64,000 nucleotides of DNA from Pseudacidovorax sp. GTDB lineage: Bacteria > Pseudomonadota > Gammaproteobacteria > Burkholderiales > Burkholderiaceae_C. Position 1 is the stretch's first letter; each line of letters opens with the position of its first letter. The stretch lies in the NCBI RefSeq assembly GCF_017991995.1, contig NZ_JAGOPN010000006.1, forward strand, positions 62,001 to 126,000, written 5' to 3'. The position numbers were made by a program, and so were the translations under genes. Of the stretch, positions 39,487 to 46,952 are shown piece by piece. Below the pieces are notes generated by a model. The model made no database searches and was not told the DNA's origin. It was given only the letters and a program-made list of their open reading frames with translations.

Positions 39487-40668
39487 ATGCGTACCCAAGT
39501 CGCCATCATCGGCGCCGGCCCGGCCGGCCTGCTGCTGGGCCAACTGCTGCACGTTGCCGGCATCGACAACGTGATCGTCGAACGCCAGACCGGCGACTAC
39601 GTGCTCGGCCGCATCCGCGCCGGCGTGCTGGAGCAGGTCACGATGGACCTGCTCAAGAAGGCCGGCGTCGATGCCCGTGCGCACGCAGAAGGCCTGCCGC
39701 ACCACGGCATCGAGCTGCTCTTCCAGGGCCAGCGCCACCGCATCGACATGCACGCGCACACGCAGGGCCGGCAGGTGATGGTCTATGGCCAGACCGAGGT
39801 CACCCGCGATTTGATGGACGCCCGCGCCGCCGCCGGCCTGACCACCCTCTACGGTGCGGCCAATGTCAGCCTGCACGACTTCGACGGCGAGCGACCCCGC
39901 GTGCGCTACGAGAAGGACGGCGCCACGCACGAGCTCGAATGCGACTTCATTGCCGGCTGCGACGGCTACCACGGCGTGAGCCGTGCCAGCGTGCCGGCCA
40001 GCGCGGTCAAGCTCTACGAGAAGATCTATCCCTTCGGCTGGCTGGGCATGCTGGCGGACGTGCCGCCGGTGTCCGACGAGCTCATCTACTGCAACACCCC
40101 GCGCGGCTTCGCGCTGTGCAGCATGCGCAGCCGCACCCGCAGCCGCTACTACGTGCAGGTGCCGGTCGAAGAGAAGGTCGAGAACTGGAGCGACGACGCC
40201 TTCTGGAACGAGCTGCGCCTGCGCCTGGACCCGGAAGGCCGCGAGCGCCTGGTGACCGGCCCCGCGCTGGAAAAAAGCATCGCCCCGCTGCGCAGCTTCG
40301 TCGCCGAGCCGATGCGCTTCGGACGGCTGTTCCTGGCCGGCGATGCGGCGCACATCGTGCCGCCCACCGGCGCCAAGGGCCTGAACCTCGCGGCCTCGGA
40401 CGTGGGTTACCTGTACCAGGCGCTGGAGCGCTACTACGGCGAGCGCAGCACCAGCGCGCTCGACCGCTATTCCGACCTCTGCCTGCGCCGCATCTGGAAG
40501 GCCGAGCGCTTCTCGTGGTGGTTCACCTCGCTGATGCACCGCTTCCCGGACACCGGCGACTTCGGCCAGAAGATCCAGGAGGCCGAGCTGGACTACCTGG
40601 TGCACTCGCCGGCGGCCTCGACCTCGCTGTCCGAGAACTACGTCGGCCTGCCGCTGGAATCGTTCTGA
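39487..40668 (+). CDS. pobA: 4-hydroxybenzoate 3-monooxygenase
   Basis: This 393-residue flavoprotein hydroxylates 4-hydroxybenzoate to protocatechuate with NADPH and O2. N-terminal FAD site [18 protein letters not shown] (about residues 4-21); [12 protein letters not shown] (about 41-52); the DG motif [13 protein letters not shown] (about 158-170) for FAD and NADPH; and the second FAD motif [22 protein letters not shown] (seen from about 281). The length equals the characterised enzymes (394). ATG 39487 has AGGAG upstream; the open frame begins 30 bp earlier. It overlaps the end of the convergent giant gene by 31 bp. Confidence 0.97.
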
Positions 40669-43600
40669 GCGGCACCCCGTGGACGCGGCCGGCGACTCGG
40701 CAGCGTCTCGCGGAGATGGATCGTGTCGAAGGCCGCGGCTTCCTGCCCGCGCAGGTGCAGCTCCAGCGCCAGCGTCCAGTGCCCGTCGGCGCCTTCGGAC
40801 TGCCGGACGGCCAGCCAGCCTTCCCCGTCCCAGGCGCCCACGCCCTCGACCTGCAGCGTGAGGTCGCCAACGAGCGGAACCGACTCTTCCAGCAACACGG
40901 TGTCGGCCAACGAGTTGGCGAAGCGCATGGGTGCATGCAGGGGCGGTGCCACGATGGCGAGGCCCTGCAGGTCGAGCCCGATGTGCAGCCGCGCCACGGC
41001 CGAGCAGTGGTAGTCGCTGGACAGCAGCACCACGTTCTGGATGCGGTGCCGCACCAGGAGGTCGAAGAAGCGTTGCCGGTCGGCGGGCGACATCTGCCAG
41101 TTGTCGGCCTGCCGCGGCGCGGGGCGGCCGGCAAACTCCCGCAGGCCCGGCGCAATCACCGAGCCGCACATCACCCACTTCGGTGCATCGCCGTGCATCT
41201 GCTGCTCACGGCACAGCCAGTTCTCCAGCAGCCTCCAGCCGGTCTCCGACAGCAGCCGACGCGTGCCGAGTTGCCGCGAGGTGCGCGCATCCAGCATGAA
41301 GGCGGAGATGTCGCCGCAGCGGAAGGCGCCGTGGTGGCGCGCGTCGTCGGCGTCGCCTTCCGCGGCCGGAAAGGGATCCGGCCCGTGGGCGCGCTGGAAG
41401 GCGCGGTAGGCCGCGCGTGCGGTGAGCGCCCGCCATAGGCCGCCCTCGCCCAGCCACAGCTGCTCGCGCGTCCAGTTGTCGACGATCTCGTGGTCGTCCA
41501 GCACCATGAAGAGCGGCAGCCGCTGGGCCAGCGCGCGGAAGCCGGGCGAACCCATGGCGTCGCGGTAGCGCGGCAGGATGCGCTCCAACTCTGAGGCCGT
41601 GTCGAAGAGGCCGGCACGCGCATCGGCATAGACCTGGTCGCCGAGCATGGCCATGAAGCGGGCGTCGCCCGTGCGGGCATGGGCGTGCGCCAGCGCTGCC
41701 AGGCTGGCGTCGGCACGCGCCGATTCGAAGCCCGTGATGCCCGGATGCCGGCACCCCGCGGCAAGGAAACAGGTGCCCCCCTCCGCGGGCCGGCGCAGGG
41801 CATCGGCCACGTGCAACCTTGCCTGCTCAGGCGTGGCCAGTTCACGGTCCACCCGCGACAGCGTGGCCGGGTCGGCGCGGCGCGCGGCGGCGGCGCGGCG
41901 CTCCAGCTCCGCCCGCAGCACGGCCACCAGGCCATCGGCATACGCATGCGGCAGCGGCGCGCCCTGCTCGACCACCGGGCCGATCAGGCCGTCCTCAGGC
42001 AGCACGACCTCGTCCGTGGTCAGGGGGACTGCGAAGGGCGCGGGCACCCGGTCCTCGGGCAAGGGCATGCGCCGGGCGGCGCGGACGAGCAGGCTCTGGT
42101 CGATGGTCAGGCGGAAGGGCGTGGCAGCGTCCGCGGCGGCGGCCGACACCATGCCCGGCGTCTGCCCGGTCAGCACCGCCAGGTCATGGGTGGCCTGGGC
42201 ATCCTCATCCAGCATTTCTCTGGGCTCCCGGACACCGGTGGATGCCGACGGGGGCGTCTGGCCCGGCACGCCCGCAGGCACCAGCGGCGCGGCACCCGTC
42301 GGCGCGGCGCTGGCGTCGAAGGTGTAGAGCCCGAAGACGTCGATGTGCACGCCCTCCACGTCCGCAGGCAGCACCACGTCGGCGACGAGCACGCTGACCG
42401 GAAAGGCCGTGCCCGGCGGCACGGTGTCGGACACCTGCGCCGGCGGCCGTGTCTGCAGGACCACGGTCCTCAGGGGCCAGGCCTGCGAGAGCCGCCATGG
42501 CTCCCCCCGGAGCTGGCCGCACGCCAGCGTCATGCCGCCCACCAGCAGGCCGCCGTGGCGGCGCCGGAACTCGGCCCACACCCGCACCACCGTCGCGCCG
42601 CCCTGCCCCGGCCGCACCCAGCCCATCAGCGGGCCGGTCGCCGGCAGTTGCGCCTCGGCATGGCGCTGCACCTGCGGGGGGGCCAGCGGGCGCGTCCACG
42701 CATCGGCCAGAAACTGCTCGATGCGGGGAAAGACCTGCTGCGCCGCAGCGCGGCCGATGGTGCAGTCGAAATGCGCGAAGCCCGGCAGCGGGTGGGCCGT
42801 GACCCGCGGCATGGGCTGAGCCGGATCGGAGGCGGTCGAGCGGCCTTCCTCGCCGAAGACCCGGCGCAGTTGATCGGCGCTGCGCGCGAGGGACGCGACG
42901 TCGAACAGCTGGTTGTCGCTGCCGTGCATGAGCATCATCGGCATGTCGAAATAGCGCCGGACCTTGTCGTCCGAGAGATAGTCGCGGCCATCGTCGTCCA
43001 CCAGCCGCTCGTGCTGCACGCACTTGGCGCCATGCAGGAAGACGCCGAGGTTGGTGCGGCCGAAGTAGATGTCCAGCCGCTCGTGGAAAGTCTCGCCCAG
43101 GCGCCCGTGATCGAACAGCGGACTGAGCAGCCCGGACATGCGCTTGCAGGTGGTGGTGTCAGGCTGCTCGACGCGCAGATCGGCTTCGTGCGGGCAGGCC
43201 TGAGTCTTGTGCGGACAGTGCTGGGCATGCGGGCACGCCGGATCGTCGTGCGGGCAGGCCTCGCCGCGGGGAACGCAGGGCAGGTCTGCGTGCGGCATCG
43301 TGGCGAAGAGCCGGTCCAACAGCCCGTGCAGCAGGTCGGGCGTGCCGACGCCGGCGGCGAACTCCAGGAACTCGCGGCCGAGCACGTTGTGCATGAAGGC
43401 GCCCAGCTGCAGGCGCTGCTGCGCCGAGTTGGAGCCGATCACATAGGGTTGGAACTGCGAAAAAACGGCCCCGCCCAGGCGATGCACCTGGCCGTCGCCC
43501 TCGGGATGGCGCACGGCCAGGTGTCCGCCGGCCAGCGACATCGCCAGCGAAGCAGCGCCCACGCAATGGCTGAAGGCATGGATGCGCAGCAGCTCGGGCG

Positions 43601-46600: not shown

Positions 46601-46952
46601 CGACACCGGCGTTGATCAGGCTGCCGCCGCCCAGTCCGTTGCCCACGAGGGCCGCGGCGCCCTGCCCCACCCGGAAGTCGAAGAGCGCATCCTCATAGCC
46701 GGCCCCCTGGACGCCGGTCGCGCCCTGCCACTGGGCGCGCACGTACTTGCCGGCATCGCTCAGGTCGCTCGGGAATTCGCCAGCCACGTATTCCTGCCCG
46801 CGTTCGAGCACGACGACATTGAACGCGGCTTCGGCCAGCCGCAATGCCGCCACCGAGCCGCCGTAGCCGGAGCCCACGACGACGGCGTCGAAACGTCGCT
46901 GCTCATCGGGCGCTTCGAGCAGCGCCTCCAGGTTGTCGGAGAGCCACTGCAT
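40638..46952 (-). CDS. Giant three-module protein: GMC oxidoreductase + alpha/beta hydrolase-like + PhoD-like phosphatase
   Basis: One uninterrupted frame encodes 2104 residues with no signal peptide. Module 1 (about 1-620) is a cholesterol-oxidase-like GMC flavoprotein: FAD site [18 protein letters not shown] (about 25-42), [16 protein letters not shown], a four-Cys motif at Cys224/227/230/234 and the active-site His539 in [10 protein letters not shown]. Residues about 620-1030 form an unassigned linker domain with a DKDQ repeat near 812. Module 2 (about 1035-1480) is alpha/beta-hydrolase-like, beginning near MINGFAQ (Met1040), with a Cys nucleophile elbow SHCVG (Cys1130) and four CPH repeats (1233-1255). 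Module 3 (about 1720-2060) is PhoD-like: GDQVYAD (Asp1772), [10 protein letters not shown] (His1821), SSDYHCSA (His1982). ATG 46952 has AAAGGGTGA upstream, 18 bp after a hybrid kinase gene. The combined reaction is unknown; a sterol-like or lipid substrate is only a guess. Confidence 0.9.
44474..44506 (-). repeat. 12-bp tandem repeat in the linker of the giant gene
   Basis: CCTTGTCCTGGT occurs about 2.75 times in a row and encodes an Asp-Lys-Asp-Gln repeat on the minus strand. Because the unit is a multiple of three, length changes keep the frame. Confidence 0.8.

Follow-up and report, generated by a model that had tools for sequence, protein, structure and literature searches.

Why should a single bacterial protein carry an oxidase, a hydrolase and a phosphatase, and what could such a chain be for? 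The question is raised by a 64,000-nucleotide stretch of a Pseudacidovorax sp. genome (contig NZ_JAGOPN010000006.1; the whole stretch is called the window below), where a single open frame of 2,104 amino acids (aa) occupies positions 40638-46952 of the minus strand, the plus strand of the same interval being interrupted by stops. The protein is probably part of a signal-linked, lipid-handling enzyme system. Our best explanation, held with middling confidence, is a cytoplasmic multi-step enzyme that would be inherited together with a two-component or second-messenger signalling protein and be under its control, the units of the enzyme acting in turn on one lipid-like substrate. As classified by module profiles, the system comprises four co-occurring units, which are encoded by four genes, by two or as one chain. 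The parts of the protein are as follows.

40638..46952, minus strand: fused enzyme of 2,104 aa, in the order GMC, beta-barrel unit (MID), hydrolase, immunoglobulin (Ig)-like/linker region and PhoD (open reading frame, Pfam, orthologues)
45117..46952, minus strand: GMC oxidoreductase module, residues 1-612, with flavin adenine dinucleotide (FAD) site 25-31, His539 and Asn589 (Pfam; PDB cholesterol oxidase match)
46251..46283, minus strand: four-Cys motif C224-x2-C227-x2-C230-x3-C234, predicted iron-sulphur (Fe-S) site (pattern scan, ferredoxin profile match, spacing as in PMC6719666)
44073..45035, minus strand: MID unit, about residues 640-960, predicted beta-barrel without a Pfam family (module profiles; model of a stand-alone relative)
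42678..43865, minus strand: acid-lipase-fold hydrolase, residues 1030-1425, with putative nucleophile Cys1130, His1394 and candidate acid Asp1351 (alignment, profile, AlphaFold model)
43185..43277, minus strand: Cys/His-rich insert inside the hydrolase, residues 1226-1256, with CPH four times (alignment; conserved in the genus)
42273..42665, minus strand: conserved pre-PhoD domain, residues 1430-1560 (alignment)
40761..41795, minus strand: PhoD-like phosphoesterase, residues 1720-2064 (Pfam, motif alignment)

An earlier note on this DNA had described a fusion of three modules, GMC, hydrolase-like and PhoD-like. The three enzymes proved real, and a fourth conserved unit, MID, has to be added; every other part belongs to a known family. 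The single unbroken frame of 2104 residues is borne out by orthologues, by the ratio of nonsynonymous to synonymous substitution rates (dN/dS) and by recurrence across genera, and the residue numbers given (FAD site near 25, His539, hydrolase from about 1035, PhoD from about 1720) are correct. The minus strand, the MID unit, the four-Cys motif, Cys1130 and an upstream kinase and response regulator go beyond that note.

A frame of this length may arise by a frameshift, by read-through or by an assembly artefact that merges separate genes, and relatives in which the genes are separate do exist. The genome itself holds one match to the entire fused protein. Five of 15 genomes of the genus match its C-terminal 520 aa: the genome under study, three full-length orthologues (73-96% identical to the window protein) and one locus cut by a contig end (L016). 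Compared with the three orthologues, the window gene has a dN/dS of 0.31-0.44 in the linker (residues 1560-1719) and of 0.04-0.39 in every module; the module values point to purifying selection on each module. Since the same single frame is found in assemblies of other genomes of the genus and of other genera, and since every module appears to be under purifying selection, the artefact is refuted, and we assign it practically no probability. Split forms also exist, and the fusion in the window is not a lone artefact beside them.

All three domains that the earlier note had proposed to search for are found above their Pfam gathering scores: GMC_oxred_N (residues 23-329, 33.8 bits against 23), GMC_oxred_C (residues 537-598, 49.2 bits against 24.6) and PhoD (residues 1756-1991, 76.7 bits against 27). 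In PDB, the best sequence matches of the fused protein are cholesterol oxidases at the N-terminus and alkaline phosphatase D (2yeq) at the C-terminus. The His/Asn catalytic pair of the GMC family is present as His539 (in TVHPLGG) and Asn589, and in the alignment with cholesterol oxidase (1b8s, 1b4v, 1coy) the HPLGG histidine and the NP asparagine coincide. However, cholesterol oxidases are secreted single-module enzymes, within the aligned stretch 1b8s lacks Cys where the window protein has its four-Cys motif, and the score of the window protein against the NCBIfam cholesterol oxidase equivalog NF058674 is 156.2 bits, below the cut-off of 850.

The four-Cys motif is a predicted Fe-S cluster site. 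The pattern C-x2-C-x2-C-x3-C was found together with the HPxGG histidine in 57 of 57 GMC modules scanned (L012, L077, L080 and L129 excluded), and the region matches ferredoxins by profile. The catalytic subunit of the FAD glucose dehydrogenase of Burkholderia cepacia, also of the GMC family, carries a 3Fe-4S cluster with the Cys spacing C-x5-C-x3-C (PMC6719666). As a comparison of spacing only, the motif of the window enzyme shows this arrangement, which in both proteins lies within the GMC chain, and the glucose dehydrogenase chain 6a2u is among the PDB matches of the GMC profile (E-value 2.7e-15). In contrast, the fourth Cys of the dehydrogenase (C213, in a disulphide) and the extra Cys of the window enzyme (C227) occupy different positions, and the dehydrogenase is a sugar enzyme with a cytochrome c subunit.

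MID occurs as a separate gene of about 200 aa in Halomonas, and the model of a stand-alone relative suggests a beta-barrel. The hydrolase part of the window protein has no Pfam match of its own; Abhydrolase_1 is matched in 30 of 38 aligned family members, and the AlphaFold model has an acid-lipase fold. The hydrolase-like module of the earlier note is therefore supported in its fold and corrected in its nucleophile, which appears to be Cys1130 and not Ser; the pattern [HRQ]C-x-G is present in 61 of 61 hydrolase modules. Lysosomal acid lipase and gastric lipase (6v7n, 1hlg, 1k8q) are the best fold and profile match, better than the polyhydroxyalkanoate synthase PhaC. Their identity to the window hydrolase is only 13-15%, and acid and gastric lipases use a Ser nucleophile where the window enzyme has Cys. 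The Cys/His-rich insert (43185-43277) is a possible metal site.

The pre-PhoD domain we infer to be Ig-like and akin to the PhoD N-domain. In the PhoD module, the site residues are Cys1734, Asp1772, Tyr1775, Asp1819-Asp1820-His1821-Glu1822, Asn1826 and Asp1980-x-His1982. The metal ligands of Bacillus subtilis PhoD are C180, D207, D265, D266, N271, N272 and D436 (PMC4223295); with the numbering matched by motif, six of the seven are identical in the window module and N271 corresponds to Asp1825. The module is of the same family as B. subtilis PhoD (2yeq) and has its metal-ligand motifs. The active-site motifs that the earlier note recognised in each module are intact and conserved in relatives: across 19 aligned fused proteins His539, Asn589, Cys 224/227/230/234, Cys1130, His1394, Asp1772, His1821 and Asp1980 are invariant. 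Of 61 loci, 57 show the three PhoD motifs under the pattern first applied, and three of the other four have the D-x-H motif in a variant setting. Catalytic motifs are kept nearly throughout, with one exception seen, L078, whose PhoD is degenerate: the Cys and the Tyr are gone, as are both Asp of DDH and the D-x-H His. This fused relative (6857-12841, genome G398) likely retains a pseudo-enzyme PhoD in its chain; that the fusion persists beside a presumably inactive module argues that not every member needs PhoD catalysis.

Where would such an enzyme act? PhoD of Bacillus and its family are described as extra-cytoplasmic, and cholesterol oxidase is secreted; both would suit an enzyme that scavenges sterols and phosphate outside the cell. 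B. subtilis PhoD is exported, whereas hydropathy gives the window protein neither a signal nor a membrane segment (an observation on location, not on fold), and the chain starts directly ahead of the FAD-binding fold. Extracellular scavenging is therefore very unlikely.

How widespread is the arrangement? At E 0.001 the PhoD-module profile matches 222 of the 399 genomes searched in the family, mostly over a short stretch or weakly, and among the matches listed 16 genomes carry PhoD in a frame of at least 1,676 aa. A draw of 398 genomes from across the phylum gave 90 with a match, and of these the genome under study alone has so long a frame. The hydrolase profile, run at E 1e-20 on 300 genomes of the order, matched 19, the frames ranging from short ones to 2,249 aa. 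Stretches of up to 20 kilobases around 40 stronger search matches, 80 named loci (the best 80 of 416 relatives in a scan of named genomes) and the earlier loci were classified by module profiles; the stronger family matches in G363, G261 and G081 were left unfetched. After removal of three repeats (L134, L191 and L194, equal to L079, L082 and L091), 61 distinct loci combine PhoD with GMC or hydrolase; the window itself and four fused loci found later stand outside this number.

Among the 61, 37 are classed as fused, 35 of them with GMC sequence in the same frame (L129 and L077, the latter cut by a contig end, are without the GMC part in frame, and L157 is cut at the contig start). In 20, PhoD is a separate gene near a GMC-MID-hydrolase gene, and four are in more pieces, including L080, which is cut by a contig end. 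The earlier note knew of no other fusion with an added PhoD module; there are these 37 other fused loci and four more. Beyond the window they occur in Burkholderiales, Ensifer and Bradyrhizobium, so that the fusion recurs in other genera, in other families and in Alphaproteobacteria, and the module order is identical in the fused loci classified, with catalytic motifs intact in nearly all of the relatives. Seven Ensifer plasmid records have matches spanning GMC to PhoD; two that were aligned form one frame, 31% identical. An annotated Ensifer record labels the fused protein 'alpha/beta fold hydrolase'. In L012 (7605-13593, Ensifer canadensis pT173e) the GMC part lies in two frames, and the adjoining cyclase is fragmented as well. 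A further 63 loci (62 distinct, L114 and L185 being apparently the same contig) show PhoD with neither GMC nor hydrolase in the stretch fetched, and the 80 named loci contribute 54 of these; L016, L084 and L102 are cut by contig ends and may be fused or split in full.

The units also occur as separate genes. PhoD, MID, GMC and hydrolase are four neighbouring genes in Halomonas organivorans, in H. litopenaei and in an alphaproteobacterial metagenome-assembled genome (MAG). Eleven of the 20 distinct split pairs share an ATGA in which the hydrolase gene ends and the PhoD gene begins. Two pairs are ordered otherwise: L123 has PhoD on the upstream side, and in L152 it comes two genes later. In the GMC+hydrolase tree, 33 of 33 fused and 18 of 21 split rows fall in one clade (Shimodaira-Hasegawa-like approximate likelihood ratio test, SH-aLRT, 99), other relatives lying outside. 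Being fused or not changes five times on this tree, and fused versus split five times on the PhoD tree; an old fusion with several later splits would be a natural reading. Both trees omit L013, a near-copy of the window, and the GMC+hydrolase tree also omits L012 and loci with a short or missing GMC. Two-module GMC + alpha/beta-hydrolase proteins (Azospirillum and Rhizobium plasmid records, annotated 'alpha/beta fold hydrolase') have the four-Cys GMC, MID and the Cys-nucleophile hydrolase in the same order as the window protein. They differ in having no PhoD and in forming a separate clade of the GMC+hydrolase tree.

Such fluidity would also be expected if the three enzymes merely belonged to one stress or nutrient response, acted on different substrates and were joined since their genes formed an operon. 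The separate genes of Halomonas and of the alphaproteobacterial MAG, the fused/split state changing at least five times on the trees, and a PhoD that can decay in place or be absent are in accord with co-expression of this kind. However, the module order is the same in the classified fused loci, the active sites are conserved, the extra unit MID is retained, and the divergence of the modules is correlated (pairwise distances, kinship ignored: 0.85 for GMC-hydrolase, 0.80 for GMC-PhoD and 0.81 for hydrolase-PhoD). We consider co-expression without a common substrate unlikely.

In the window, two further genes directly precede the enzyme.

46971..48725, minus strand: membrane hybrid histidine kinase, HisKA-HATPase-REC (Pfam, hydropathy)
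48661..49527, minus strand: LuxR-type response regulator, REC + GerE (domain search)

The domains of a two-component system are all there (HisKA, HATPase_c and REC in the kinase; REC and GerE in the regulator), and the sensor region of the window kinase matched no Pfam domain. Only 18 base pairs separate the kinase stop from the enzyme ATG. The frame of the regulator overlaps the kinase start; as its REC starts at residue 82, translation probably begins well within that frame. The window kinase tops the 117 matches of the family profile in its genome (599 bits; the next, 407). The PADLOC anti-phage defence models gave 0 families at E 0.001 for the enzyme and kinase.

Do the signalling genes follow the enzyme elsewhere? 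Among 56 distinct loci with upstream room (L077, L080, L117, L129 and L157 have none), the kinase family lies directly upstream on the same strand in 39, is fused in frame in one, is nearby elsewhere in four and did not score in 12. Five of these 12 (L007, L008, L012, L112, L184; Ensifer, Bradyrhizobium and G461) have a divergent nucleotide cyclase, L118 has a GGDEF-EAL protein and L181 a kinase spread over two frames. In a tally assembled by hand, a signalling gene (kinase, cyclic di-GMP (c-di-GMP) protein or nucleotide cyclase) stands beside the enzyme in 51 of 51 classified fused or downstream-PhoD loci with room. It includes L181, L082 (convergent kinase), L126 and L133 (divergent kinases), L078 and L118 (GGDEF-EAL) and the five loci with a cyclase; its agreement with the 51 main-clade tree rows is a coincidence, L012 and L013 being counted among the loci and not among the rows. 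The four fused loci found later adjoin a kinase of the same family. A LuxR-type regulator is present in 30 of the 61 loci versus 0 of the 63 PhoD-only loci, of which 7 scored with the kinase profile. Pfam kinase, ATPase and receiver domains were found in 30 of 32 proteins scanned and GGDEF-EAL in the other two, and in 4 of 4 split loci scanned a REC-PAS-GGDEF-EAL protein lies upstream of the kinase. PhoD-lacking relatives outside the main clade (L201-L203, L208) also adjoin kinases.

At the locus with the in-frame kinase (L109, 5002-12330, genome G070), histidine kinase, GMC, MID, hydrolase and PhoD form one open frame of 2,443 aa, in one genome only. The cyclases of L007, L008, L112 and L184 (that of L012 is in pieces) are large and divergently oriented beside a fused or split enzyme; both of those scanned (L007, L112) carry an AAA_16 ATPase domain. 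In L201-L203 (G927, G1019, G890), which lack PhoD, GMC and MID-hydrolase are separate frames with a divergent large hybrid kinase alongside; the one scanned, of L201, has a 7TMR-DISM sensor and an Hpt domain.

A rival explanation is that the enzyme makes or destroys a small lipid-like ligand sensed by the adjacent membrane kinase, enzyme and sensor forming one signalling unit whose output is interchangeable between lineages (LuxR-type regulator, REC-PAS-GGDEF-EAL with c-di-GMP, nucleotide cyclase). The 51 of 51 loci, the in-frame kinase of G070, the REC-PAS-GGDEF-EAL gene of the four split loci and the cyclases of Ensifer, Bradyrhizobium and G461 all agree with this. Yet simple transcriptional control explains the co-location equally well, no export route or known signal chemistry is seen, the sensor region of the window kinase is without a Pfam match, and the G070 fusion, from one genome, could be a sequencing error. 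We regard such signal turnover as doubtful. If the enzyme does handle the kinase's ligand, it would be a new route of bacterial lipid signalling.

In the favoured explanation, a multi-step enzyme under signalling control, the substrate would be lipid-like and bear an alcohol group together with a phosphoester and either an ester or a thioester. The units would act in turn, with no order implied. PhoD would free phosphate or a head group, the Cys enzyme would cleave or transfer an acyl group, and the GMC module would oxidise the alcohol, its electrons leaving via the Fe-S cluster for a carrier and not for O2. The MID barrel may bind or hand over the greasy substrate. The membrane domain of the kinase would serve to sense substrate or product, and expression would be adjusted by the response regulator. 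The earlier note had held that the fusion implies sequential processing of one substrate. The repeated joining and the coupling of the units do make a shared pathway likely; the succession of steps is put forward conditionally, given the degenerate PhoD of the fused L078 and the relatives without PhoD.

Several observations weigh against this explanation. First, the substrate is putative, and a resemblance to acid lipases at 13-15% identity could mislead about it. Second, L078 stays fused although most PhoD metal-site residues are lost, PhoD-lacking relatives exist, and 10 of 15 genomes of the genus have no match to the C-terminal 520 aa, so that the gene is accessory. Third, outside the main clade the split loci L123, L124, L130, L143 and L152, the other five of the 12 in which the kinase profile did not score, have no kinase-family neighbour; nor is there a kinase-family match in L205 (not counted among the 61 loci), where a PhoD-like frame (76 bits) lies directly downstream of the GMC-hydrolase gene. 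Finally, the kinase profile was built from these same loci, and the distance correlations carry no control for shared ancestry.

The families are known, and the open PMC papers searched hold no description of their fusion or combination. What those papers do not describe is a GMC module with a predicted Fe-S site, a putative Cys-nucleophile hydrolase of acid-lipase fold and PhoD in one chain, with no export signal seen, beside signalling genes across the main clade. The natural two-gene, four-gene, PhoD-degenerate and kinase-fused versions provide an unusually good set for following how an operon becomes a megaenzyme and how an enzyme becomes attached to a sensor.

Two relatives have further neighbours. 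In L011 (312-11300, Rhizobium leguminosarum), a PhoD-lacking GMC-hydrolase gene lies near phaC, phaE, coenzyme A-transferase and alcohol dehydrogenase genes. In L152 (782-9221, Pokkaliibacter), genes for a RoxA-like cytochrome c protein and a calcineurin-like phosphoesterase lie between the GMC-hydrolase and PhoD genes, and the cytochrome c protein is a possible electron acceptor for the GMC module.

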